Of a stretch of 64,000 nucleotides of DNA, positions 8,896 through 64,000 are shown one piece after another (within the stretch, counting starts at the first letter, position 1; every line of letters begins with the position of its first letter). The translations under genes and the position numbers were made by a program. The stretch is from Gautieria morchelliformis (lineage: Eukaryota > Basidiomycota > Agaricomycetes > Gomphales > Gomphaceae), in NCBI GenBank assembly GCA_015179125.1, contig WHVA01000003.1, forward strand, positions 470,001-534,000. Direction: 5' to 3'. The notes beneath the pieces are model-generated. The model saw nothing but the letters and a program-made list of their open reading frames with translations, made no database searches and had not been told where the DNA came from.

Positions 8896-9452
8896 CCAAA
8901 GGAGGATAATCATAATGGTTATGTAATACAGCATATATGAGTATATAATATATACTATAAGAGTATTAATAACAACATATAGGAATATATAGTAGTATTT
9001 ATAAGGAGAATAATAGATGTTATTAGATGATTCTGTATATATTTAAACATCTCGAAGATATATATACATATGAGAGAGTATTAGACTACAAGATAGAGTA
9101 ACAGATACTTGGAGAGATACTTGTAACAGATATGAGTAGGAGTATTAGTATGACTAGTTATAATGAGAGAGTATTAGACTACCATATGGAGTAATAGTAG
9201 TTGTCTAGATATTTGTAATATATATGAATAGTTATAATTATATAGTGTATATTAAAAGTGGGTAGAAAAAATAAGAAGAGGGGTAAAAATAAGAATGGGT
9301 GTTCTCGTTGGCGGAGCGGCTGCTCGGGGAGGGACAAAAGAAAATTTATTTATATCCCAACAATAAGATTGGCATGTACTTTCGTCCTCTTCTTTTCTAT
9401 AATTTGAGAATAAAATGGGTGAAGCTACAGGTAATAAAAAGTTGTGAGCATC
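8896..9452 (-). repeat. AT-rich dispersed repeat, copy A
   Basis: About 555 bp, very AT-rich, with one GC-rich internal box (ctcgttggcggagcggctgc, near 9303). It is the reverse complement of the copy at 42,333-42,866 over its whole length, and of 25,480-25,902 over the first three quarters. No clear terminal inverted repeat, no poly-A and no coding capacity; probably a non-autonomous element or solo terminal repeat. Confidence 0.8.
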
Positions 9453-9459
9453 CGCCAAA

Positions 9460-11344: not shown

Positions 11345-13057
11345 ATGCCAGCCAGCGCGGAAGCCCAAACAGCCCCAGCGACAACATCGCTGCGCACGAG
11401 GGCCAGCAGCCAGCAAACAGGCAGTAAAAGCAAAGCCGACCTACTAGCAGATCCTCACGCCTCAGTACGCACCAAAGACCAAGCCCGGACATTCCTCGAC
11501 AAGCACGGATTCCTCGCAAGGGAGAACCCGGCCACCGCCGACCAGCTCAGCTACGTCCTCCTCTCCCTCGCCCACAGTTCCTCCGGCAAAACACTCGAGG
11601 AGGGAGCCAGAGCAGCAGCAATACTACTCACCGAAGAGGCGGCCAGAGAAGCGAGCAGCGTGCTACTTCAACACGTCGAAAAGACCTTAGCGCCCGTCTT
11701 CACAAAAGTCGACGAGGTCATCGACGCCGTACGCGGCATCGCAGACACCGCGAGGACCGCAGCGGACGAGGCAAACATGGCGGTGGAGGACATCTGCAGC
11801 GTACACAGAGCCAGAGCAGAGCTAAGAGAGGAAGTCAGAGAGGGGGCGACAGCAGAAGGCGCTACATACGCGGCAGCCCTAAAAGGTAACGTCCCTTTAT
11901 CACATCCGAGTAACCTGGCAAGAGCCAGGGCCAGAGAGCGCCAGTTGCTGATAGACAGAGACCCGAGAGCTGAGCACAACGCGCTGGGGGAGCTCACCGA
12001 AAGAGAGCTGGTCGCTAAGGCCAATGAAGCGCTAGAACAGCTAGGAGAGCCGAACGCGCTCGAGGACATCAGCTTCGTAGGGGCCAAGATCCTGGCCAAC
12101 GGAGGGATAGTCTACGAATTAAACAAACCGGCGGCAGCCAAATGGGTCCAGACCAACAAGGCGCGCTTCATAGACAAGCTAGGCGGGACGTCCGTGGTCA
12201 AAGACAGAGCAGTATCAGTTCTAGTAGAATACGTCCCACTAACGCACTCACCAGAAGCGATGGGAGAACTCAAGAAAATTGAAAGAGACTCCAGGCTACC
12301 CAGCGATACCTTGCTGTCGACCAGATGGATAAAACCAGCGAACAGGAGAACCCAGGGCCAGCGCTCAGTGCACCTAATAGCTAAGTTCTCCACAATCGAG
12401 GCTGCAAATCAGAGTATACGGGACGGGCTGATAATAGCAGGAAAACGCACCTGGGCGAGATGAATGAAAAGAGAACCCAGGAGGTGCCTAAAATGCCAAA
12501 GACAAAACGCACGACACATGGCGGCGGAATGCGGGAGTGAGGAAGTATGCGGGACTTGCGGAAAGGGGCACAAAACGGCAGAGTGCGAGGAAACAGACCC
12601 GAACCGATACCGATGCGTAAACTGCGACCAAAATGGACACGCGTCATGGGATCGCACGTGCCCAGCGTTCACAGCCGCGTGCCAAGCAATCGAGAGAACA
12701 GACCCAGAGGGAACGTATAAATATTTCCCCAACGACACACCGTGGACATGGGAGCAGCGGGGTCAACAGGGTACGACGGCGGACGCGGCGGAGCTGTTGC
12801 AGAGGGAAGCGGAGCACATCAGCAGAATGAACCACCCAGATCAGACACACCAAACGACCAGAAGAGATAGCCAACGCGAACCAACGAGAACCGGACCAAC
12901 AGGGGAAGGACGAGGACGACACAACACCAACCCAGAAGTAGGCCACAGAGACCCAGGATGGCAGAACCGTAACGAAAGACAAAGGACGCTAGACGAGTTC
13001 GGGACAGCAGACGGACAACAGACAGAGACGACCAACAACGAGACACGGCAAGGATGA
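11345..13057 (+). pseudogene. LINE ORF1: Gag-like RNA-binding protein with three CCHC knuckles, one internal stop
   Basis: One frame of 570 codons runs from ATG at 11,345 to TGA at 13,055-13,057, broken only by TGA at 12,461-12,463 (codon 373), immediately before an ATG. Residues 1-100 are Ala-rich, residues 100-190 helical and probably coiled-coil, followed by an RNA-binding-like region. The part after the stop has three consecutive zinc knuckles (CLKCQRQN..., CGTCGKGHKTAEC, CVNCDQNGHASWDRTC). ORF1 proteins coat LINE RNA and form the RNP. The stop codon follows AGA and may have been CGA. It would separate the N-terminal half from the nucleic-acid-binding knuckles unless it is read through or translation restarts at the adjacent ATG. 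Confidence 0.85.
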
Positions 13058-16000
13058 GTGACACAACCGAGACGATACAACAGTTGCGGATCAGACAACA
13101 AAATGCCAACAAATCACTAACGGCCACCGCAGACATACTCGCCAAAGCCACACCCGACAAATACGATATAATCGCCATACAAGAACCGTACATCGATTTC
13201 CTAGGAAATGCAAGAGCGACCCCTAACTGGTACACCATTTACCCCAAGACCCACTACCTAGACAAGGAGAAAAGAACGAGGTCGATGATACTAGTCAACA
13301 AGAGGATAGCGACGAGATCATGGGAAGCCCTCGATGTCGGCTCCCCAGACATAACAGCAATGAGAATAGAGACGCAAGCCGGCAGCATCATAATCCTAAA
13401 CATCTACTGCGACTGCACACATTCCGACGCGCTGCGAGACATCGACATATTCATACAAAAACAAACGGACGACAGGGAAGATAGGGAATGCGACGCGGGA
13501 ATGATATGGGTCGGAGACTTCAACAGACATCACCCACAATGGGACGAAGAACGCAACAACCATCTATTCACCAGGAACAACCTCGACGAGGCGCAACTGC
13601 TTATAGACGTGGTAGTGGAAAGGGACATGCAAATGATACTGCCTAAGGACACGCCAACACTACAAGCCATGTCCACAGGAAACCTGACGAGAACGGATAA
13701 TGTATTTTTATCCTCATCGCTACTAGAGTGCTTACTACGATGTCACACAGAGCCGGAGGACCAGCCGACGAGGAGCGACCACTTCCCAGTGGACACTATT
13801 CTGGAAACCACGCTCGAGACAATGCCCATGGAACCGTGCTACAACTACAGACAAGTCGACTGGGAGGCATTCAGAGGAAAACTAAGAGAGAGGCTACAGA
13901 GTCAGATAGAACAACCGGTCCCCACAGACAAGCAGCAGTTTCACAATAACCTGAAAAGGATTACTGACGCTATCATAGACACCACAAGAGACCACGTGCC
14001 GCGAACGAGACCCTCCCCGTTCATGAAGCGCTGGTGGTCCCTAAACCTGACCAAACTCAGAACGGAGACGAGGAAAACAGGGAGACAGGCATACAAGCAC
14101 AGAGCGGACCGCGCACACGAATCACACGCGAAGTACAAAGAGGTCAGGAACAAGTACGCGGAGGCGATAGAGAGCTCCAAAAGAGAGCACTGGGAAGATT
14201 TCTTAGAGCATGTCAACCAAAAGACGGTATGGACAGTCCACAAGTACACATCGAGCGACCCAACGGACGGGGGACGAACGCGAATCCCAAAGCTCATATC
14301 CAAGCACGGCAACGGCGAGCAATGGATAGCAGAGTCCAACGAAGACAAAGCCTCAATGCTCTTCAAGAATTTCTTCCCAGACATGACAACTCGCTCTGGA
14401 GCAGCCGCAGACGAAGATTACCTGACCCCCGCGTTCGACTATGAGGAGATCACGGACGAGCAGATACGCAGAGCGATAGAAAAGCTGAACACATTCAAGG
14501 CGCCAGGAGCCAACGGTATCCCTAACTCAGTGATCAAACAGAATGCTGATGTGCTCCTACCCTATATAGGACCACTATTCCGCGCGACGTTCAGCCTAGA
14601 GATATACCCCAGCGAATGGCGGGACTCCATCACCAAGGTACTCCGCAAACCAGGGAAAAAGGATTACACCGTCCCAGGCGCATACAGACCAATCGCGTTA
14701 CTAGACACCTTGGGAAAAGTTCTATCGGCATGCGTCGCGGAAGACTTAGTCAAAAACACGGAGAGGTACAACCTCCTGCCGAGCAACCACTATGGATGTA
14801 GAGCGGGCCGCACAACAACCGACGCGATCCACCATGTGATAGCGACTGCAAAAGACGCATGGAGGAAAGGGAATACATTGGGTGTGCTATTTCTCGATAT
14901 CAAAGGAGCATTCCCAAGCGTTATACTAACCACGCTTGTACACGACATGTGCATGCGAGGCATCCCCAAGGAATATACCGACTGGATAAAAAGGAAAGTC
15001 CAGGGGCGCAGAACCACCGTACAGCTAGACGACTACAGCACCGCATCGATGACCATAGGGCGCGGCATGGACCAGGGGTGCCCCCTATCGGCCATAGCAT
15101 ACCAATACTATAATGCGGGCCTGATCGAAGTAGTCCAAAAGAAGAACGGCGAGGACTGCATAGGCTTCGTAGACGACACAACCGTACTAGCGGAGGGGAG
15201 AGACATGGCAAACGCCTTCGGGAAGCTGGAGAGAATAATGACCAGAGCGGGAGGGGCGTTGGAATGGGCGCGAACACATGAGTGCACATTTGCTATAGAA
15301 AAGTTTGGGCTAATGGGACTGACCAGAAGGAGGGAACCTGACCCCACAAAGGAAAGGAAGGCCAAACCGGCACAGAGGCCCCCAATAAGCCTGGGACAGC
15401 ACGCGGTCAAACCGGCCCAGTCACACAAGTTCCTCGGGATCATCATTGACCAGGAACTGTGATTCAAGGAACAAGTCAATCACGCTCTCCAAAAAGGCAG
15501 CAGATTCATCGAACCATACAAGAGACTGGCGAAGCCCACAAAAGGCGTCCCAGCCAAACAGATGAGTCTATACTACCTCACAGTCGCAGTCCCGAAGCTT
15601 CTATACGCAGCTGACGCCTTCCTCTTACCAGACTCCGCACGTGGTAGAGGAACGAAAGGACACATCAATAAGCTAGCTCGAGTCCAGAGGCAAGCGGCAC
15701 TTGCAATAACGGGAGCGATGCGCACCACGGCGAGTGATATCCTCGATGCCTACGCTAACCTACTGCCATTTCAGCTCCTGGTGGACAAGACAGTACACAG
15801 AGCGGCCGTGCGCCTAGCTTGCCTCCCAGGCAATCACCCACTGGCCGCCAGAGTGCAGAGAGCGGCGGCGAGATATGTCAAAAGACACAGAACGCCTTTC
15901 CACGAGATCATGCACACATACGCACTACAGCCAGGTAAAATGGAGAAAATACAAACGGTAACCCAGAGCCCAAAATGGACACCGTCGTTCAAAATCCGCA

Positions 16001-17004
16001 TACCACACAAAGAGGAACAGGCCATGGCAGAGGTAAGGGATGACACTGCACAAATTCAGGTATACACCGACGGATCGTGCGTTGACGGAGGGGTAGGAGC
16101 AGCAGCGGTTCTATACAAGGGGGGAGTAGAGATACAAGCAGTCAGGCTCTACCTAGGCACCGAAGAGCAACACACAGTCTTCGAGGCGGAACTGATCGAA
16201 GCCGCCATGGGGGCGAAGCTTCTATACACAGAGCGCAGCCAGAGATACACCATAGGGCTGGACAGTCAAGTGGCAATGCTAACGACGAGGAAGGACAAGC
16301 AGATCCCGGCGCAGTACATGATCTGCGCACTGCACCGCCAGATAGAGGGACTAGTGCAGAGACGACAGGGGACGGAAGTGACCATGAGATGGACCCCAGG
16401 CCACAAGGGCATCAAGGGGAACGAGAGAGCAGACGCGGAGGTGAAGAAGGCGGCGAGAGGCGACAGCAGTGAGGAGAGACATGTGCCGATAGAGTGCAGG
16501 GGTGTACTGCCGTGGAGCAAAGCCGCAGAGCTACAGCGGCACCAAAAGGAGCTCAAAGGGAAGGCCAGAGAGCTGTTTGCAAAATCGCCGAGAGCTGGTA
16601 TAGCGCACAGAATCGACAAATCGATGCCGTCCGTAGCATTCGCAAGGCTGACAGCAGGCATGCCACGAAGGAAAGCAACGCTCCTCATCCAGCTAAGGAC
16701 AGGACACATCGCATTAAACAAGCACCTGTACCGCATAGGAAAAACAAACTCACCGACTTGCGCAGCATGCAAAGGCGCAGACGAAACAGTACACCACTTC
16801 CTCTTTCGATGTCCAGCCTACAAAACCCAGCGCAGCGAGCTTGAAAGAACGCTCCGGAGAGCAGCAACAGCAGCCAACACGCTCCTAACAAAACCGAAAG
16901 TGATGAAAGGGCTGTTCAGATACATTCAGAGCACGGGAAGGTTCAAACAAATGCACGGAGACTGGAACACAAGAGAGGAAGCAGGAGGGCAAGGCAGGAA
17001 CTAA
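13054..17004 (+). pseudogene. LINE ORF2: APE endonuclease-reverse transcriptase-RNase H, one internal stop
   Basis: The ATG at 13,054 overlaps the ORF1 stop (ATGA), the arrangement used for termination-reinitiation. 1316 codons: an APE-type endonuclease at 1-245 (IIAIQEPYI, GDFNRHHPQWD, SDHFPVD); reverse transcriptase at about 430-740 (GANGIPNS, YRPIALLDTLGK, LDIKGAFPSV, GMDQGCPLSAIAYQYY, active site GFVDD near residue 705); RNase H from about residue 1000 (YTDGSCVDGGVG, EAELIEA, LDSQVA, GHKGIKGNERADAE); and a C-terminal CAACKGADETVHHFLFRC zinc motif. TGA at 15,460-15,462 (between DQEL and FKEQ) splits reverse transcriptase from RNase H. Otherwise the frame is open throughout, so the insertion is fairly recent. 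Confidence 0.9.
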
Positions 17005-17279: not shown

Positions 17280-17310
<31 letters not shown>

Positions 17311-17602: not shown

Positions 17603-20600
17603 TCACATGGACGTTTGAACACCGTGATGCTCCTCACCAAGCACCCCCTTGCTTGTCTCCATGACAGGAACCTCTAGGCCCTCCACCTCCATGCACTGGC
17701 CCTGACTCTGATAGGTGATGGCAAGATTCTCAATAGAGCATACTGTGTCAGGATGGTCCTCACCAAGCACCTCCTTGCTTGCCTCCATGACAGGAACCTC
17801 TAGGCCCTCTGCCTCCATGCACTGGCCCTGATTCTGATAGGTGATGGCAAGATTTTTAATAGAGCGTACTGTGTCAGGATGCTCCTCACCAAGCACCCTG
17901 TTGCTTGTCTCCATGACAGAAACCTGCAGTTCCTCAGCCTCCTTCCACAAGCCCTGCTTCCAATATGTGACAGCAAGATTCCCCATGGAGCATAGTGTGT
18001 CAGGATGCTCCTCACCAAGCACCCTCCTGCTTGTCTCCATGACAGAAACCTGCAGGTCCTCAGCCTCCTTCCACCAGCCCTGATTCGAATATGTGACAGC
18101 AAGATTCCCCATGGAGTGTAGTGTGTTAGGGTGCTCATCACCAAGCACCCTCTTGCTTGTCTCCATGACAGGAACCTCCAGGTCCTCAGCCTCCATCCAC
18201 CGGCCCTGATTCTGATAGGTGATGGCAAGATTCTCCATAGAGCATAGTGTGTTAGGATGCTCCTCACCAAGCACCCTCTTGCTTGTCTCCATGACAGAAA
18301 CCTGCAGTTCCTCAGCCTCCTTCCACCAGCCCTGATTCGAATATGTGACAGCAAGATTCCCCATGGAGTGTAGTGTGTTAGGGTGCTCATCACCAAGCAC
18401 CCTCTTGCTTGTCTCCATGACAGGAACCTCCAGGTCCTCAGCCTCCATCCACCGGCCTTGATTCTGATAGGTGATGGCAAGGTTCCCCATAGAGCGTAGT
18501 GTGTCAGGATGCTCCTTACCGAGCACCTTCTTCCTTGTCTCCATGACAGGAACCTCCAGGTCCTCAGCCTCCATCCACTGGCCCTGATTCTGATAGGTGA
18601 TGGCAAGATTCTCCATAGAGCATAGTGTGTTAGGATGCTCCTCACCAAGCACCCTCTTGCTTGTCTCCATGACAGAAACCTGCAGTTCCTCAGCCTCCTT
18701 CCACCAGCCCTGATTCGAATATGTGACAGCAAGATTCCCCATGGAGCATAGTGTGTCAGGATGCTCCTCACCAAGCACCCTCCTGCTTGTCTCCATGACA
18801 GAAACCTGCAGTTCCTCAGCCTCCTTCCACCGGCCTTGATTCTGATATATGACAGCAAGATTCCCCATGGAGTGTAGTGTGTCAGGATGCTCCTCACCAA
18901 GCACCCTCTTTCTTGTCTCCATGACAGGAACCTCTAGGCCCTCCGCCTCCATCCACTGGCCCTTATTCCGATAGATGATGGCAAGATTCCCTATAGAGTG
19001 TAGTGTGTCAGGATGCTCCTCACCAAGCACCCTCTTTCTGGTATCCATCACCAGAACCTCCAGTTCCTCAGCCTCCTTCCGCCGGCCCTGACTCCAATAG
19101 ATAATGGCAAGACTCCCTATAGAGCGTAGTGTGTCAGGATGCTCCTCACCGAGCACCTTCTTCCTTGTCTCCATCACAGGAACCTCCAGTTCCTCAGCCT
19201 CCTTCCATAGGCCCTGTTTCCGATAGGTGATGGCAAGACTCCCTATGGAGTATAGTGTGTCAGGATGCTCTACCCCCAGCACCCTCTTCCTATTTTCCAT
19301 CACTACCATCCCTAGCTCAATGGCCTCCTTCCATCGTCCTGCTTCATCATATACTTGCCAAAAGCTCTCACATATATCAGAGCTACTTGTCTTTGAATGT
19401 GATTTAGAAATATGAGATAGAAGGGACCTCCTGAATGCATAGTCCTCTATACTCTTTCCAACTGTCATGGAAAGGGATAGTATCTGTAATGTGCAGTTGC
19501 AGTGTGCTTCACCATCTGTAATCCCAGTACGGTCTCGAGCCCAAGCATGCACCAGTGGATGAATGGAAAATGTCTTGCCATCTCCATTGATACTAATCAG
19601 TGAGTATGATGCTAACTCATTCATTATATTCTGAAATCTGAAGTCACTCCAGGTGCCATTTGTAGTCTCGAAATTTTGTAGAAATTCCTTTGCATCATCA
19701 AATTGTCCATCACTCTGCCTAGCAGCAGCTTTTTCAAATATACTTTTAGAAATACCACCATAATGCAAATATCCACATAGGTGTAAGAGCCTTGCTGCTA
19801 TAACACTAAGCTGTTTCCAGCTAAGTTCCCATGTTGTATAGACTGCCAACTGATAGTCATCCAGTGTCTGCACAGGATGTGTCTGCATCAGTTGTGCCCG
19901 GTCCACCTTGAAGGTCTGAAGGTATTCATCCATGTTGCAAGACTTTGAGATATAAGCACCTGCTTGCACAATAGCCAGGGCAAGATACCCAAGTTCTTTT
20001 ACTATCACAGATGCCACTCTTTGATTGTTCTCAGAATCTTTGGCCATTGCAAATGTAAGAAGCAATTGAATGGCATCATCAGTATCCAACCCTGAAACAT
20101 TGCAGTGGGAGTGAGGTGAATGCATGCGGCATTCCACATTACGGCTTGTTATGAGTATGTTTCCATGCTTGCATGCTGGGAAGTACTTTCGAAGGTTAAT
20201 GCCTGGGTCATCAGCATTATCCAGGAAGAGCAGCCATGTTTGGTGTTGTCGTGCAAGCCAGTGAAGAGCCTCATTGGCACTCTTTCCAATTCCTACTTCA
20301 TGAGCAATGTCTTCAAAGCCTGACTCTAGGGCTTGTGCACTACTTGCATCAATGCAATACACTCTCCAGAAACTGAACATGAAACAGGTCAGTCCATACA
20401 TAGCATACCTGGGTAAATTACCCCACCATTGATAAAACTTATCAATGAATGTCAATGCAATCTGTGTCTTTCCTGCACCACCAAGCCCATACAAGACAAA
20501 TATGCGCTGTTCCACCTCAACAGATGGCCAGTCCGATAAGAAGTATCCCTCCAGTTGCATAAGGATATCAGCTCTTCCAGTAAACCTGCTTGTTGGTGGA

Positions 20601-22107
20601 GGGCAAGTCTTAAGACGTGCTCCTTTAGCAGATTCCTTGCCAACAGTGCCTATACCAATGGTGTCTATCATACAACGTCAGAAACAGTTGTGAGGAAATG
20701 TAGGTCATACGCACTGAGGTGTGCAACAGCTATCACTTCCCAGCGCTCCCTGAGAGCTTTGACAGCAACTGTGACTGACTCATCTACTTTTCCCTGCCGA
20801 AGATACTGTAATGTGTGCGTTGTCACCTCATTCAATCTTTCCCACTGTGCCAATGTTACACTCTGCATTCCTTGCTCCACGTTGAACCGGAAGTAAACAT
20901 TTGCAGCAGACCTGAAGCGCCGCTCCGTTTCCTCCGCTGTGGTCTCACATCCAGTAGTAATCCTCATTAATACCTGGGCTACACCAAATGGTATAACATT
21001 GCTAAGTAGACTGGGTGTCGGCAGGCCCGTTGTGGTGACCTTTCCAGTGCCAATACTGATGACACAAGCAATATGCTGGTGTGGAAAGATGTGTTCTGCC
21101 TCAGTGAGGAGTTGCTTGATAGGATTGTTGCACCCCAGACCGGCATCAACGAATGGTTCATCCATAGGTGGTACGCCGATGACAATGCGCTTGAAAAACG
21201 TGGGAGCGGCAGAAGTAGCACGAGCGGCCTCCCAAATAGCGCAGTCGAATGATTCATTCTTTTCGACGCTGTACGTGCGAAAAAGGCGGGGAGTACTCAT
21301 GTTATTTGCGGGCATTGCACAGACAAAGCTGTGTTCAATCAGCTGCGTGTGAAGAAGAAGCGGCACCCTGAACGTACGTCTTGCAGACCTCGTTGCTTGG
21401 TCTCGGATCAAACATGCGTGCATTAGTGTTACCAGTCGATTCCTGGATGATCGCCTGGAAAGCCTTCTCCAAATTGGATGCCTTGAACATCCCATCTTTC
21501 CAAAATTGTTTCTTGTCCGAGAAAACCTGTGATGCAAATCTGCCATAGGCATCGATCGCCTTATCTACTGGCAAGCGGAGACGCCCAAGCATGAGGGCTA
21601 TGAGCCTGGGCGGACGTATTAGAGCGCGATGATGATCTGGAAAACTACTTACCCTCCTGTACTCGTACCGCCGATCAAGTCGAAATATTCGCAGGGAAGA
21701 GGCATCGTTTCTCGCCCTTCCTGGCGCTGAATTCTTTGCATAATTTCCTTGAGAATGATGAGTTCGGACAAACCCCGAATGCCGCCGCCGTCTTCTCAGG
21801 GAGTCAGAAGGTGTCACATAGCAAGCATAAAGACTTACCGAGTGAAAGCAACCTAAGCCCGGTACCCTGGGGCTCATCGTTTGGGACTGATTCGATGGCC
21901 GTTCCTCCTACCGGGAGAGCAGAAGTAGACGGCGATATAGCCTTGTAGTACGTGAAGACTTGTCAGACAGGTCCCTCTATTGTTTAGAGTCCCAGAATAA
22001 ATTCTGCCTACCGTTGAGGTTCCTAGCGACGATCGCGGGACGATCGGCGGCATTTCGTGTTGCCTAGATGAAGTCAAGACTTTGGAGATCTGCTGGCTAC
22101 GGTCCAT
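17603..22107 (-). CDS. Patatin/NB-ARC/TPR NLR (fungal STAND protein), complete
   Basis: Seven exons fit by phase: 22107-22012, 21941-21839, 21791-21653, 21605-21378, 21328-20715, 20664-20427 and 20372-17603, giving about 1395 aa from ATG at 22,107. The N-terminal patatin-like phospholipase has the oxyanion loop DGGGIRG (about residue 67), nucleophile elbow GTSTGG (about 112) and catalytic-Asp motif VDAGLG (about 249). The NB-ARC has Walker A GLGGAGKTQ (about 454), Walker B LLFLDNADD, ILITSRN and an MHD-like IHPLVHAWARD (about 745). Thirteen full 42-residue TPR units (kinesin light-chain type) and a partial one follow. By family knowledge the TPRs sense a ligand, NB-ARC drives oligomerisation and the lipase is the effector of a cell-death or incompatibility response. 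The last intron (54 nt) is in-frame and would be missed by ORF callers. All catalytic motifs are present, so it looks functional. A duplicated repeat block begins about 110 bp upstream and may limit the promoter. Confidence 0.88.
17640..19360 (-). repeat. 126-bp tandem array encoding the NLR's TPR units
   Basis: Thirteen full 126-bp units plus a partial one. Units read like LEVPVMETSKRVLGDEHPNT followed by LHSMGNLAVTYSNQGWWKEA. Units 8 and 10 are identical in protein, and 6 and 9 differ at a single residue. Differences concentrate at a few positions (RKK/SKR/SRR, D/N before TL, R/H/C/Y before S, and the residues around QG). Confidence 0.92.
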
Positions 22108-25475: not shown

Positions 25476-25479
25476 ATGG

Positions 25480-25902
25480 TGGATGCTCACAACCTTTTAT
25501 TACCCGTAGCTTCACCCATTTTATTCTCAGATTATAGAAAAGAAGAGGGTGAAAATACATGGCAATCTTATTGTTGGGATATAAATAAATTTTCTTTTGT
25601 CCCTCCCCGAGCAGCAGCTCCGCCGACAAGAACACCTCTTCTATTTTTACGCCTCTTCTTATTTTTTCTACCCACTTTTAATATACACTATATCATTATA
25701 ACTATTCATATATATTACAAATATCTAGACAACTACTATTACTCTATATGGTAGTCTAATACTCTCTCATTATAACTAGTCATACTAATACTCCTACTCA
25801 TATCTGTTACAAGTATCTCTCCAAGTATCTGTTACTCTATCTTGTAGTCTAATACTCTCTCATATGTATCTATATATCTTCGAGATGTTTAAGTATATAC
25901 AG
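25480..25902 (+). repeat. AT-rich dispersed repeat, copy B (3'-truncated)
   Basis: Same family as copies A (8,896-9,452) and C (42,333-42,866). It matches from the start (atgctcacaacc) through the GC box to gtttaagtatatacag, then stops exactly where the duplicated ATG13-like block begins at 25,903. The last 140 bp of the family are missing. Confidence 0.82.
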
Positions 25903-38036: not shown

Positions 38037-38719
38037 TATTGGACCGAGGCTCAAAATTCATACCCATTTCTTCCGTTCCCTCAGCAAAGCTCTTGACATG
38101 AACTTGCACTTTACCTCCAGATATCACCCAAAGGCGATGGTCAAACTAAACATGTAAACCAAACTCTCAAACAATATCTCTGTGTGTACTGCAACTATCA
38201 ACAGGACAACTGGTCCAAGTTGCTACCACTTGCCAAGTTTGCATACAACAATCCTCCTAGTGCCACTACCGGCATTTCCCCGTTCTTTTCCAACAAGGGC
38301 TACAACACAAACCTCACGGTTCACCCTGAATGGGGCCTCACTTCCTCTCAGGGCTGAGACTTTGCAGTTGACCTTGACCAGCTTCACGCTGCCTTGAAAG
38401 AGTAAATCAACTCCACTCAATCTCAGTATCAGGTCTTGGCTGACACACATCATGCTCCTGCCCCCAAGTTCACAACAGGAGCCTTAGCATTTGTAAAAGC
38501 GCAGTTCTTCCGGACAACCTGGCCCTTGAAGAAGCTGGCTGAAAAGTACCTCAGCCCCTTTGAGATCATAGGCCAGGCCGGATCCAGAGCTTACATCCTT
38601 CAGCTTCCGAACAGCCTTCAGGCAGTCCACCCAGTCTTCCATGTCTCTATGCTCAAACCCACAACCCTGCAACCTTGAACACCATCCCAAATCAGGTTCA
38701 GTCTCCACCACCTCCAGTC

Positions 38720-39292
38720 CACTGGAGACATGGTAACATTTCCTGACTTTGGAGATCTACTGGAAATCCTAAGGATATTCCACATTTCTTCAAAATTTCC
38801 CAGTTCAGGAAATTGGTTGAAAATTTAATGTTTTATCAGAGTTTTTGACTTCAGGATATCCTTCAAAAATTGTAAGATTACCACCTCAAAATCTTCAAGA
38901 AACTCTCAGGAAGCATTGAATTTCCCCTGCTATGAAACTAAATATTTATTAAACTTTCCTCAGTTTTGGAAATTCTATGAAAATGTTGGTTTCCTGAACA
39001 TTTGATAGAGAAACTTTGTGGAAACCACTGTTTTTATAGAATTGCCTAGCTGGGGAAACTTTACTAAAAATTTAGTTTCATGAAAGAGGAAATTCAATGT
39101 TTCCTGAGCATTTCTTGAAGATTTCTATGTGCTAATTTTACAATTTCTGAAGGATTTCCAGCAGCCAAAAAACTGACAAAACATTAAATTTTCATCCAAT
39201 TTCCTAAACTGGGAAATTTTGAAGAAATGTGGAATATCCTTAGGATTTCCAGTAGATTCCCAAAGTCAGGAAATTTTTCCATGTCTCCAGTG
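38720..39292. mobile_element. 573-bp fold-back MITE, copy 1
   Basis: Starts CACTGGAGACATGG and ends CCATGTCTCCAGTG, flanked by AGTC on both sides (38,716-38,719 and 39,293-39,296). The inverted similarity extends through most of the element, so a transcript would fold into a long hairpin. It lies between the integrase and chromodomain parts of the Ty3 fossil. Related copy at 44,313. Confidence 0.85.
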
Positions 39293-39529
39293 AGTCAAGA
39301 TCAACGGCAAGACAGAGTATGGGATTTCCGAGATCCTTGATTCCAAGATCGACTGATGCTGCAGACCTTGTAACCTCCTGTACCTTGTCCGTTGGGCTGG
39401 TTATGAAGGTACAATTGAAGAAACATCATGGGTCCTTGCAACCGAGCTCAGCCATGCATCCAAGATCATGACTGACTTTCACTTGGCCTACCCTGCCAAG
39501 CCAGGACCATGGGTTCCTTGAACCCAAAC

Positions 39530-42007: not shown

Positions 42008-42324
42008 CACTAGGTGCAAGTCACTGTTTGTTTACCATAACCTATGGCAACAAATAGTGAAAAAAAGAGGAAATCTTGTAATAATTTGAAACTATGGCAA
42101 ATGGTGAAGAATTCTTTCTTTTTGTTTACAATTTAAAACATCAAGAAAATCTGAATAAAGGTATCTGTGTTTATTCAGATTTTCTTGATGTTTTAAATTG
42201 TAAACAAAAAGATAGTATTCTTCACCATTTGCCATAGTTTCAAATTATTACAAGATTTCCTCTTTTTTCACTATTTGTTGCCATAGGTTATGTATGGTAA
42301 ACAAACAGTGACTCACACCTAGTG
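42008..42324. repeat. 317-bp nearly perfect palindrome (fold-back element)
   Basis: Arms of about 150 bp, from cactaggtg at 42,008 to the centre near 42,158-42,167 (spacer about 10 bp), with very few differences and one small indel. AT-rich and non-coding; ends CACTAGGTG/CACCTAGTG. It directly abuts copy C of the AT-rich repeat. Confidence 0.9.
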
Positions 42325-43895: not shown

Positions 43896-44312
43896 GGTGA
43901 ACTTGATGGGTTATATGTCTTGAGAGTATAGCTCTTAGATATAAAGCGACCAGCAAAAGATGAGAATCACCTACACCACATCCTCATCCACAAGATGCAG
44001 TCTGCTGGGTAGAGTGCTAAACTCGACACCGTCCAGGTTCAGGTCTTCATGAAAAGATGAATGTGACTTTTAACAGCTAAGCTATTTGGGATACTTACCC
44101 TCACTGGCCTTCATGCTCCAGTCAATGATATTCCCTCATGTTGGATGGAATGAGCAGTGAAAAATGGCAATTGAAGGAGCGATGAAATGTGAGTCTAGCC
44201 CTTCTCCAATGTTCACGAATCTCACTAAGGTCCTCTGGATCTCGATCCCAAGAACTCATGGACAAAATTCTTGACATGCTTAGTGTCTCTGAGCCACTGA
44301 AATGTGGGGTTA

Positions 44313-44881
44313 CATTGGAGGCATGGCAAAATTTCCTGACTTTGAAAATCAACTGGAAATTCTGAGGATATTCCACATTTCTTCAAAATTCCCCAGTTCA
44401 GGAAATTGGATGAAAATTTAATGTTTTGTCAGAGTTTTTTGTCTGCAGGAAATCCTTCAAAAAATCACCTACAAATCTTCAAGAGATGCCCAGGAAACAT
44501 TGAATTTCCTCATTCATGAAACCATATATTTAGTAAAATTTTCCCAGTTAGGAATATTGTATAGGAACACTGATTTCTACAAAGTTTCCCTGTCAAATAT
44601 TCAGGAAACCAATGTTTTTGTAGAATTTCCAAAATGAGGAAACTTTATTAAATATTTAGTTTCATAGAAGAGGAAATTCAATGTTTCCTGAGAGTTTCTT
44701 GAAGATTTTGAGGTGATACTTTTACAATTTTTGAAGGATTCTGTGAAGTCAAAAAAACCTCTGACCAAACAATAAATTTTCATCCCATTTCCTGAACTGA
44801 GGAAATTTTGAAGAAATGTGGAATATCCTTAGGATTTCCACTAGATTTCCCGAGTCAAGAAATTTTGCCATGTCTCCAGTG
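44313..44881. mobile_element. Fold-back MITE, copy 2
   Basis: 569 bp; starts CATTGGAGGCATGG and ends CCATGTCTCCAGTG. Same family as 38,720-39,292, with matching interior (ggatattccacatttcttca near both ends, inverted). The left end has two changes. No exact 4-bp target duplication is visible. Confidence 0.85.
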
Positions 44882-44884
44882 GTG

Positions 44885-45595
44885 TTAGCGTGTTGACATG
44901 GCTGCCACAATAAAAAAAATTATCTTGCCTTGGTCACAGGCTGTGGGTCGGGCCCTGGGCAACATTGGAGATGGCAGAGGCAATAGGGTGAGGGAGGGAC
45001 ATGGATAAGGCGCAGAAGGACAAGGCCACTTTCCCTTGATTGTGTACGAGCATGGAAGAATCGGAAAAAGGATGTCTACGAAGCAGCTGAACTGTAGAAT
45101 TGTTGTTATGGATCTCCACTCAACCATGCACTCCGAGCCCACAGTACCAAACATGATGTTTGGTACTGGTGGGTTCAGAGTGCTCATCGCCTAGGTAGCG
45201 TATTAAGTGGGCAGGCGACCAATCAACATGTGGATTTATATTATGTGTCTACTCACGTGACTCTTGAACATCAGCAACAACAGTATCGGTAGATGTGAGA
45301 TACTCAGTACTATAGTGTCACAAAGGCAGGGAAAAGCTGGTGGGAAGATGTACCATGTCTCAAAGTCCCAGCTTGGCTAGTAAAGACGGCAGAAGAATGT
45401 GCCACAGATGTGTTCACAAGACTTCCGTGCACAGGTCTTACCAAGGTCAGGACAAGGTGTTCGAGTTGTCGACCCCTAGGCTTTGCTTACATATTTGAAA
45501 CTATGCCATACCTTGAGCGGACGTATACTATAAGGCTATTGGAAAGGTAACAACCGCTACCTTTCAGCAAGTCGAAACTCGAACAGCGGTGTAGT
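44885..45595. other. Intergenic with a perfect hairpin at 45,142-45,168
   Basis: Non-coding. The hairpin has 12-bp arms CAGTACCAAACA/TGTTTGGTACTG around TGA. Confidence 0.5.
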
Positions 45596-46219: not shown

Positions 46220-46989
46220 GCCACGTCTGATGTGGAACCAACGCTACCAAATCACTGATCTCCCCAACATACTGCCTGTCAGCATCCATTGCTTCATGCG
46301 TGACACGTTAGATATCACCGATGAACTCGGTAAGGTTTTGTGGGAGACATTGAAGGGGTTGCGGAACCAGAGGATAATATGAACAAATGGCTCAGGAAGA
46401 GGTCAGTACAGCCAGGATACCGAGGACCCAGCTACCGTATGTGGAATGCGTCTCAAATGTGTCGTGAGTCCGCACTGTCGTCCGTCTGTCCGCCGAACCC
46501 ACCGTTCTGCGGTCTAGTTTAATCACACTTGCCGTACAAACGCAGCTTTGACGATCATAATACACCATGCCTGCGTTTCTACGCCCCCTCTCATTCTTAC
46601 TGGATGGCTCCAGTCGTGGCGGGTGTCACAGCTCGATATCACAGATACCAGCTGGCTCGGCTGTTGACGCTCGCGCTGCCTAGATTGTCGCCTGTTCTCT
46701 CTAGTCTGCACTCACTTGAGTGGCAGGCGCGAAGGCGAGGTTACCGGTGTCTAAGAGTGCGATGGTAGGGATTGGCTGGCCCGGCCGCCCAGCAGAGGCA
46801 TACCGAGGATAGTCCTCGGATGGATGCTTGAACGGGGGAACCTCGTATGGCACCAAATTAATGAAAGAGGGCCACATTCCAATGACGACGCAACCTGAAC
46901 AGGCCTATCATGCAGACTTCAGGCCAGCTGATGAGCTGCCAGCTCATCACCATCTGACGACATAAGGACAAGGTCCAACTCAGAGCTGG

Positions 46990-57959: not shown

Positions 57960-58380
57960 GGTTGAGGATCTTTATATCTGAGTTCAGCTCGTGCGTGTCC
58001 GACTCGAGTCGTCGGAAGGGTCGGTCGTCCAAAGCGGTTTGATAAGAGTGCTTGCCATTCTCAGAGTCGATTCAATGTCCGACCATTACATAACTCGGAA
58101 TTCGAACTCCTTCTTTCTACCTCCGCCACCAAGCCTGGCCGCCCTCGACATTGACGCTCCTTACCCTTGTGCTTTACTTATATAATGGGGCGTCCAACCA
58201 AGCGGATGCAGAGAAATCCGGCCGTTCATATTGATCATTATACCCGCTCAATACCCTCTATTACTGTAATATTATTTCAATCGTTATTGTCATGCATATA
58301 CTCGATTATGACATAGCGTTGGCTGTTTTCTTCTCGACCAGAGGCCTCGGGAGCTACGTGTTCTGCCACCATACATAAGC
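57960..58380 (+). repeat. Dispersed segment, copy 1 (paralogue of 63,190-63,480 and 63,770-64,000)
   Basis: Starts ttcagctcgtgcgtgtccga, passes gagtgcttgccattctcaga, contains atataatggggcgtccaacc and cattatacccgctcaatacc, and ends tcgggagctacgtgttctgc. Two further partial copies of its right end lie in tandem at the window end. Followed by a 23-bp A-run (58,408-58,430). Confidence 0.8.
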
Positions 58381-58633
58381 CGATACAGTGTCAAATACTA
58401 ATAAAAGAAAAAAAAAAAAAAAAAAAAAAACACGAAGTCACAAGTGATCATGCTACATCTGGCTCCAATTACAAGGATGGGCATCGCCCAGCCAGGGGCG
58501 GTGAGATGGAGAGTTTCTAGATGGGGTGTCTCGAGACGGCGCCGTGTGGCACATGGAGTGTATCGAGGCGGGGCTGGGTCGCGAGATGGAGGGTCTGGGA
58601 AACGCCTGTCCATGCTTGCATGCCACCCAAGGC

Positions 58634-58825
58634 GACTTCCATCGGCATAATCAGTGAGTCTTTCAGCTTCTTGATACTGTCAGCAGATTTGCCGACCTTG
58701 GGCTCCTTCAGCGGCCATGTCAATGCGAACCGTGACACGGCCGCTGAGCAAGGCCGAAGTCAGAAAGACTGTGGACAGTATCAAGAACCTCAAAGACTCG
58801 TTGGTTATGGCGACGGAAGTAGATC
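58634..58825. repeat. Diverged inverted duplication of a short coding-like segment
   Basis: The plus strand from ATG 58,717 reads RPLSKAEVRKTVDSIKNLKD SLVMATEV when its two parts are taken together; the minus strand of the left arm reads WPLKEPKVGKSADSIKKLKD followed by SLIMPMEV. The arms (58,634-58,715 and 58,735-58,825) are head to head, with about 20 nt between them. The plus frame continues to 58,983 (FAAFEAGVSLAVGLVTPRN). The protein family is not recognised. Confidence 0.7.
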
Positions 58826-59159
58826 AGACGCACGTTGCATTCGCGGCCTTCGAAGCAGGTGTAAGCCTTGCGGTAGGCCTGGTTACGCCCCGTAACGTAG
58901 AATTCAGAATTGAGCCGGGCGAGTGGAAGGGAGGAGCGAAAACTGTCCAATTCTATATCACATCTGTGCTACTTATACTCTGAGAGCGGCCAGGCCTATC
59001 TAAAGAGAACAAAAGGATTGCAAACGGACCACAATGGTGGGCTATCAATAATGAGACAATGGCCGAAGAAATGCGGACAAGTGTGCTTGTCCACAATCAG
59101 GGGCTATGTGTGGACGCGTCTGATCTCTCCTTATCCGCAGCTAGACTGCTACGCTGTCT

Positions 59160-59260
59160 TACATCGGGCCCAGGCCTCCAAAAACCCAGGCAGGAGGTCT
59201 CGGCTTCCCCTGCGCCCGGCCCTTAAGCCCGGGCTTTTTTGGGTGGGGCCTCCATTGTGG
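59160..59260. repeat. GC-rich dispersed repeat, copy 4 (weak)
   Basis: gcccaggcctcc, gcgcccggcccttaagcccg and ggcttttttgggtggggcct recall the other GC-rich copies. Extent uncertain. Confidence 0.3.
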
Positions 59261-59506
59261 ATCGTCGTTTGCGGAGTCCAAAAGAGTTACATAACTGTAA
59301 CTACAAAAGGTTGTGAATTAGCTGAAAATTTTCTCCACTGTTTTTTTTTGCGTCCTTCCACCTATCCCCACACTTTAAATCCCAGTGCCTCGCATAGTCA
59401 TCGACAGCTCCGAAGACGAAATCCAAGAAATCGTCTCTCTGCCATTTAAAAGCAGTTTGGGCCGTGTGGCGAAGGTGAAGCCAAGCACGGAAGTGCCTCA
59501 ACGGCG

Positions 59507-59621
59507 CTATCTATCTTCAAGTTGAAGATAGATAGTGGTGTCGACGCGCTGCAGGAGCAGGGTGCCACCCATAGCCAGTCAACGCAGGACATGAACAGCC
59601 TGTTCATGTCCTGCGTTGACT
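59507..59621. repeat. Two perfect hairpins in the NLR relic
   Basis: 59,507-59,535: 14-bp arms CTATCTATCTTCAA around G. 59,577-59,621: 21-bp arms starting AGTCAACGCAGGACATGAAC around GCC. Both perfect. Confidence 0.95.
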
Positions 59622-59950
59622 CCCGTCTCTGTGACGTCTGGACATGGCGGATCCGTGTCCAATCCTTGCAAAGACGGACTGCCGAGATTATCCAGGCGCG
59701 CTAGAACAAGCCAAACTGCGTACGTCACCTCTCGCCAGTGTTTCCAAAGGTGTGAAGCTGATTCTGAAGCCTTCGTTATGTAGAAGAACATCGCCAAAAG
59801 ATCCATAATTGGCTGGAGCCTAGCGGCTCCTGACCACGAACCAAAGCATAGGAATTCCAGTAGCGACGACAAGAGACAACCGAGGTGTGGTTTGTGGAAG
59901 AAAAAACGGTTCTAGAAATGGGGAGAAGCCCCTCAATCGCCGCGAGTAAG

Positions 59951-60061
59951 GAGTAAATATTCAGCAGCATAATGGACTCACATATACCGTGGACCCAAAG
60001 GAACGCGGTTCCTGTGGGTCCAGGGTATACGTGAGCCCGCTCTGCTCCTGAATATTTACTT
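59951..60061. repeat. Imperfect 54-bp-arm inverted repeat carrying NLR Walker-A-proximal sequence
   Basis: Left arm from gagtaaatattcagcagc, right arm ending gaatatttacttg. Plus strand of the right arm: GTRFLWVQGIREP...LLNIYLLL; minus strand of the left arm: GTAFLWVHGICES...LLNIYSLL. Confidence 0.85.
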
Positions 60062-63189: not shown

Positions 63190-63480
63190 AAGTTCAGCTC
63201 GTGCGTGTCCGACTCGAGTCGTCCGAAGGGTTCGTCGGAAGGGTCTGTCGTCCAAACCGGTTTGATAAGAGTGCTTGCCATTCTCAGAGTCGATTCAAAT
63301 TGAATCGACTCTGAGAATGGCAAGCACACCAAGCCACGATCCTTACCCTTGTGCTAGGCCAACATGTCATCTGTTATATAATGGCGCGTTCAACCAAGCA
63401 GATGCAGAGCAAGTCGGCTGTTCGTATGATCATTATACCCGCTCAATACCTTGTATTACATGTATCGTAGTCCGTAGAGC
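63190..63480 (+). repeat. Dispersed segment, copy 2, with inverted-copy replacement
   Basis: Matches 57,990-58,260 on both sides of a perfect 28-bp-arm palindrome (63,271-63,327, 1-nt centre). Copy 1 has about 50 bp of ordinary sequence at the place where copy 2 has the inverted arm. Confidence 0.9.
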
Positions 63481-63497
63481 TCTTCGAGTCTATATTA

Positions 63498-63737
63498 GGG
63501 TGTTTCACGCTTGCGTTTTCGTGATTTGGCAGAGGTTTTTGCGTCAGCGTTTTCGTCGCCGCTTTTGGAAAAAAATCAGCAAAAATGGGTGGAAAATGCC
63601 AAGCGTGAAACGGGTGGATCCCGGCATTATGTAAGACAAGTTACATTGATTATATAATACACGTAAGGGAACTTTCGCCTCAAAAACGTCGTGAAAATAT
63701 CGACGAAAACGCCACGAAAACGCAAGCGTGAAACACC
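63498..63737. mobile_element. 240-bp TIR MITE flanked by TA
   Basis: Ends GGGTGTTTCACGCTTGCGTT and the inverted AACGCAAGCGTGAAACACC, about 26 bp of TIR, TA on both sides. It shares the GGGTGTTTCACG terminus with the 727-bp element at 37,310 but not the interior. No coding capacity. Confidence 0.85.
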
Positions 63738-63769
63738 TATTATTGCACAGGGTCTTGGTCATAATAGTG

Positions 63770-64000
63770 CGTTTCAGTATCTCCCTCAGGAGAGTCACTA
63801 TTTCAATCATTATTTGCCATGCATATAAGTACACGATTATGACATACTATTGCGTTGGCTGTTTCTTCTAGACCGGAGGCCTGCAGAAGTATAGGTATCG
63901 GATCACTATTTCAATCATTATGGCCACGCATATACTCGATTATGACATGGCGTTGGCTGTTTCTTCTCGACACGAGGCCTCGGGAGGTACGTGTTCTGCC
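63770..64000 (+). repeat. Tandem partial copies of the dispersed segment's right end, cut by the window
   Basis: cactatttcaatcattat, ctcgattatgacat, gcgttggctgtttcttct and gaggcct recur at about 63,800-63,885 and 63,902-64,000, as in 58,268-58,378. Confidence 0.8.

Follow-up and report, generated by a model that had tools for sequence, protein, structure and literature searches.

The Gautieria morchelliformis DNA analysed here, a stretch of 64 kb (the window, 50.7% G+C), carries two paralogous segments that differ by a sharply bounded replacement, in which a block of one copy gives way, in the other, to a reverse-complement copy of the adjacent flank. The best account of this difference, and probably the correct one, is a template switch with return to the own strand in the lineage of the second copy. 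Sequence comparison placed copy 1, the presumed before-state, at 57981-58367 and copy 2, around the palindrome, at 63191-63464, both on the forward strand; the match may extend further, copy 2 being cut by the window end. The alignment bore out the claim of a first-pass annotation, made from the letters alone, that two paralogous segments lie here. In copy 1, a 28-mer common to both copies (58048-58075) runs straight into an unrelated block of 52 bp (58076-58127, forward strand), which the pair alignment shows to be missing from copy 2. In copy 2, the identical 28 bases (63271-63298, forward strand) form the left arm of a perfect inverted repeat of 57 bases (63271-63327), and are followed by a spacer of one base, A63299, and by the right arm, the presumed new piece (63300-63327), given on the minus strand, which matches the reverse complement of the left arm exactly (28/28). 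The first-pass annotation had described the 28 bases as followed directly by their own exact reverse complement, a description that holds once the A between the arms is added. This base belongs to the copied piece: the 29 bases from 63299 to 63327 match the reverse complement of copy-1 58048-58076 at 29 of 29 positions, so that T58076 of copy 1 is missing from the left arm of copy 2 and its complement is kept as the spacer. Homology restarts at ACCAAGCC (58128 in copy 1, 63328 in copy 2), in agreement with the earlier observation that the match resumes after the palindrome, though the right flank has other indels. The replacement of about 50 bp that had been proposed is therefore real, and its sizes are corrected to 52 bp lost and 29 bp gained.

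Chance is excluded as the origin of this structure. Arms of 28 bp at spacers of 0 to 10 are expected about 1e-11 times in the window, and the reverse complement of the shared 28-mer has a single occurrence in it, the right arm itself. When folded as single-stranded DNA, the region 63250-63350 reaches -34.9 kcal/mol (z -12), a value equalled by none of 200 shuffles. The palindrome apparently sits in non-coding DNA, and a TATA-like motif (63375-63381) follows 47 bp downstream of its end. This position, together with a left flank that is better conserved than the right one, would suit a functional palindrome maintained by selection, be it a regulator site, an RNA hairpin or a mobile palindromic element. 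Against such a role, copy 1 lacks the palindrome, the five palindromes of the window that share a one-base spacer (see below) are unrelated in sequence by eye, and the whole window yielded no Rfam match at gathering scores, a result that also led to the rejection of an RNA gene. A function under selection is hence regarded as highly improbable; the palindrome most probably represents a neutral mutation, and no function is claimed for it. A reading of the two copies as an LTR or solo LTR was likewise discarded: the TATA-like motif and an A tract were seen, but the terminal TG/CA disagree by eye.

The flanks are collinear on both sides of the replaced piece, and they have not diverged equally. 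The left flank is identical at 93 of 95 positions (2/95 mismatches) plus a 13-bp duplication, and the right flank at 110 of 122 (12/122 mismatches), with several gaps and other indels. The difference, evaluated on 57981-58268 and 63191-63464, gives a Fisher p of 0.025 (0.018 when the 3' piece is included), and it could stem from unequal constraint or from the left tract having been converted recently. Several further replacements between the paralogues are found to the right of the palindrome, which indicates that the region had complex changes. Further homology of copy 2 to copy 1 appears at 63799-63882 and at 63907-64000, where the window ends; this 3' part of copy 2 is tandemly duplicated (63795-63891 and 63903-63989, 78% identical), while it is single in copy 1. 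Copy 2 also contains a MITE-like element (63499-63737) with exact 25-bp terminal inverted repeats (GGTGTTTCACGC...), which is absent from copy 1 and has TATTA on both sides, at 63493-63497 (then one G) and at 63738-63742.

The relation between the copies was scored with a four-point model, in which a linear alignment is followed by one reverse-complement excursion and a second linear alignment, and which is compared with linear alignment alone; its parameters (switch rate, gap costs, length prior) were set by choice rather than fitted, in which respect it differs from the calibrated published model. In the direction from copy 1 to copy 2, the switch model gained 31.5, 29.8 and 28.2 natural-log units at divergences of 0.05, 0.10 and 0.15, respectively, whereas from copy 2 to copy 1 it scored -8.9, -9.2 and -9.0 log units at the same divergences. 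This ratio is one-sided by construction, because a switch makes a palindrome cheaply but cannot cheaply unmake one, and a published threshold of 8.95 belongs to another calibrated model and serves for comparison of scale only. The template switch with return that the first-pass annotation had put forward thus stands as the best single-event account, with a log gain of 28 to 31.5 against about -9, while its before-state is a matter of parsimony.

The fitted points 1, 2, 3 and 4 fall at 58075, 58076, 58048 and 58128 in copy-1 numbering, and points 3 to 2 delimit the presumed template stretch in its copy-1 state (58048-58076, forward strand). These positions suggest the following course. In the copy-2 lineage, and presumably during replication, a polymerase moving rightwards would have halted after 58075, switched its template to the opposite parental strand at base pair 58076, the next in line, and copied 29 bases backwards, from 58076 to 58048. 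It would then have returned to its own strand at 58128, with 52 bp skipped, and the outcome of switch and return would be a perfect palindrome with a one-base spacer. In the four-point scheme described for great apes (PMC7954356), fold-back of the nascent strand needs point 2 to lie before point 1, and a point 2 that lies ahead is a sign of inter-strand switching. In the present fit, point 2 exceeds point 1 by one base, which points to an inter-strand switch at the next base pair, a reading that hangs on one base whose agreement with copy 1 has a one-in-four chance. Synthesis on a strand folded back on itself requires a loop of several bases, and a single loop base is sterically unlikely. Nascent-strand fold-back would not readily account for a spacer of one base and a point 2 that lies beyond point 1. 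Microhomology at the switches is nearly absent: the letters, read by eye, show a single C at the return, and at the first switch nothing that could serve.

The same spacer base lends some weight to a different origin, in which the left end of a double-strand break was sealed into a hairpin, or copied inverted by end joining, before an off-centre opening allowed it to be joined to the right flank. Hairpin sealing of ends is carried out by hAT-type transposases and by the antibody-gene recombinase, and a hairpin cut with an offset of one base would leave a spacer of one base complementary to the base that came next, in line with both the length and the identity found here. The presence of five tight palindromes in the window, all with a one-base spacer, and of the MITE-like element about 170 bp away would also be in keeping with break repair. 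However, the 28 added bases far exceed the usual length of an opened hairpin, and the junction, read by eye, shows neither a terminal repeat nor a target-site duplication. Such a repair is considered unlikely, and the template switch with return remains the preferred reading.

The switch appears to have needed no earlier palindrome, as the lost block does not align to the right arm beyond chance and copy 1 has no unusual fold. When the block was compared with the right arm (as 58076-58128, one base longer than the 52-bp block), no similarity above shuffles was detected (p 0.34 and 0.15, 5000 shuffles each), and the copy-1 stretch was not exceptional in its folding (z -0.34; 60 of 200 shuffles did as well). 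The event, therefore, looks more like de novo palindrome formation than like the correction of a quasi-palindrome. The notion that copy 1 is itself a decayed palindrome or a quasi-palindrome found no significant support, the loose similarity of GAATTCGAACTC to GAATCGACTC being at chance level. A weak imperfect stem does occur in the best fold of this stretch of copy 1, from which it follows that a very short quasi-palindromic precursor may have existed; precursor arms of 4-5 bp would escape the alignment and fold tests used, and some yeast cases are reported to have begun from arms of just that size (PMC8604942).

Copy 1 is likely the before-state and copy 2 the after-state, on grounds of parsimony and not of proof: the path from copy 1 to copy 2 takes one event, while the reverse takes the earlier birth of a palindrome, a deletion and an insertion of 52 bp. 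That reverse path, in which the palindrome is older and copy 1 is derived by deletion of the right arm and gain of 52 bp from elsewhere, deserves some attention, since palindromes are prone to deletion and the copy-1 block opens with TGTCCGAC, eight bases that stand in direct orientation upstream in copy 1 as well, at 57996. Direct matches of 8 bases occur at 2 of 260 start positions in copy 1, evidently both members of one pair, and the repeat implies that copy 1 may itself be rearranged; the unequal divergence of the flanks (2/95 versus 12/122) leaves room for the same. Nevertheless, beyond requiring the additional steps, an older palindrome is at odds with copy-2 arms that show no decay and with a block for which the DNA next to either copy offers no significant source (p 0.065, 0.287, 0.996 and 0.734) and which BLAST, at E up to 0.01, matched nowhere else in the window. 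This ordering is, accordingly, judged to be rather unlikely. A third copy was also looked for: the exact shared 28-mer had 0 matches in a collection of viral contigs and a copy-2 27-mer had 0 in a collection of genome contigs, and neither copy 1 against plasmids nor copy 2 against phages gave a match. The 27-mer differs from copy 1 at one base and could thus find only copy-2-like DNA, and these negatives weigh little for a eukaryote, as the collections are viral, prokaryotic or plasmid.

Elsewhere in the window, frames of a non-LTR retrotransposon with endonuclease, reverse transcriptase and RNase H domains occupy 13054-17004, with a 26-base A tract downstream (17285-17310). On the minus strand, at 17603-21552, a patatin frame is followed by an NB-ARC/TPR frame; the latter contains about thirteen 126-bp repeats (13.2 copies, 87% matches) and, judged from its sequence, resembles a fungal NLR-type gene in which the TPR repeats are similar. 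No tRNA was found in the window by ARAGORN. A near-perfect palindrome of 317 bp lies at 42008-42324 (arms matching at 148/162), and a repeat that adjoins it recurs at 8937-9459 and 25477-25875.

The palindrome at 63271 is not the only tight one in the window. There are 21 entries for perfect inverted repeats whose arms reach 10 or more and whose spacer is up to 30; two of them overlap at 62.7 kb, and all five with a spacer of 0 to 5 have a spacer of exactly one base. Besides the one at 63271, these are, with no strand assigned, 59577-59621 (arms of 22, no paralogue found in the window), 59507-59535 (arms of 14, the core of a decayed 59-bp inverted repeat, 59492-59550, matching at 23/29), 45142-45168 (arms of 13, the core of a decayed 56-bp inverted repeat, 45128-45183, at 25/29) and 46929-46949 (arms of 10, from the inverted-repeat count). 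When spacers of 0 to 8 are considered, five of nine have one base, and the 29-kb tandem array holds two of the remaining four. In ten dinucleotide shuffles the mean was 0.1 at spacer 1 and 0.6 over spacers 0 to 5 together, and the analytic expectation at spacer 1 is 0.06. Under equal use of spacers 0 to 5, the probability that all five share one spacer is 0.0008, a figure that is post hoc, concerns five cases and is taken as a lead. Two further inverted repeats are eroded, 59952-60060 (45/54) and 58635-58820 (69/93). The latter, an imperfect inverted repeat of 186 bp, has arms that read as similar opposite-strand peptides (DSIKKLKDSLIM / DSIKNLKDSLVM) and would be like an old inverted duplication of coding DNA.

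The excess of one-base spacers hints at a recurrent birth of palindromes by strand switching at the base pair being copied. In this genome, new palindromes would be born repeatedly by a swap to the partner strand at the base being copied, each with a spacer of one base, the complement of the former next base, and the window would display a series of birth and decay from perfect (63271, 59577) to eroded (45128, 59492); this extension is a tentative one that we think rather improbable. Birth and decay of inverted repeats is as such possible, with the numbers small and drawn from one window, and the test of the retained base is confined to 63271, because a BLAST of 58400-59700 found no paralogue for 59577 and 59507. 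The decayed members bear as well on whether the palindrome is an assembly, cloning or library artefact in the form of an inverted chimaera, small inverted chimaeras being a known library artefact. Inverted repeats that have partly decayed look like aged real events and unlike artefacts, which supports the class as real rather than the palindrome at 63271 itself; for the latter, what speaks against an artefact is that the sequence rejoins the correct collinear flank. An artefactual origin is considered very unlikely.

Other reverse-complement replacements between paralogues, a search for which the first-pass annotation had suggested, were sought in 11 comparisons of paralogues, each read both ways, and in one self-comparison, which its design makes uninformative. 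The scan, run without a shuffled control, kept exact reverse-complement matches of at least 8 with at least 3 differences. The 29-nt replacement from copy 1 to copy 2 came out clearly, and among the matches listed there was no other clear case. The comparison of copies 1 and 2 also listed a 12-mer identical to its own reverse complement, situated at the 13-bp duplication. The pair 38700-39310 / 44300-44900 gave matches of 19, 14 and 13 among those listed, which are not independent evidence because this element is itself an inverted repeat, and three other paralogue pairs gave only 8 or 9 among the matches listed.

Template switches that make perfect inverted repeats are already known from apes, RNA genes and yeast. 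A close parallel is offered by the great-ape events (PMC7954356), in which a reverse-complement copy takes the place of a stretch close by, the return is collinear and the product is often a perfect inverted repeat, and which were evaluated with a log-probability ratio of the kind used here; the present case differs in that it compares two paralogues in one genome with no outgroup, and in that the piece is 29 nt long versus an expected length of 10 in that model. Work on hairpins of RNA genes (PMC8794818) likewise describes how a single event can make a perfect stem, with four-base loops enriched among instantaneous compensatory changes, as opposed to the one-base spacer found here. Template switching in a fungus has been reported to give perfect inverted repeats in yeast rad27 deletion strains and in wild lineages (PMC5677150, PMC8604942), and one product had 16-bp arms and a 1-bp spacer; these cases are described as mainly correcting or extending a quasi-palindrome, whereas here no significant precursor was detected. 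Numerous perfect inverted repeats, with template switching as one possible mechanism, are also reported from the mitochondria of Nematomorpha (PMC6649704), but those palindromes are mitochondrial, lie in coding genes and reach a far greater length (up to 284 bp). The usual way to find short template switches is to compare species or strains, and two paralogues in one genome can give the likely before and after side by side, in this instance with no significant quasi-palindrome beforehand. Only the excess of one-base spacers might be new. In a survey of 118,019 genomes (PMC13155455), eukaryotic perfect inverted repeats are reported to have predominantly a spacer of 0. Published studies differ on inter-strand switching versus fold-back, and such an excess, if it holds genome-wide, would offer a simple signature separating inter-strand switching from the fold-back of one strand.
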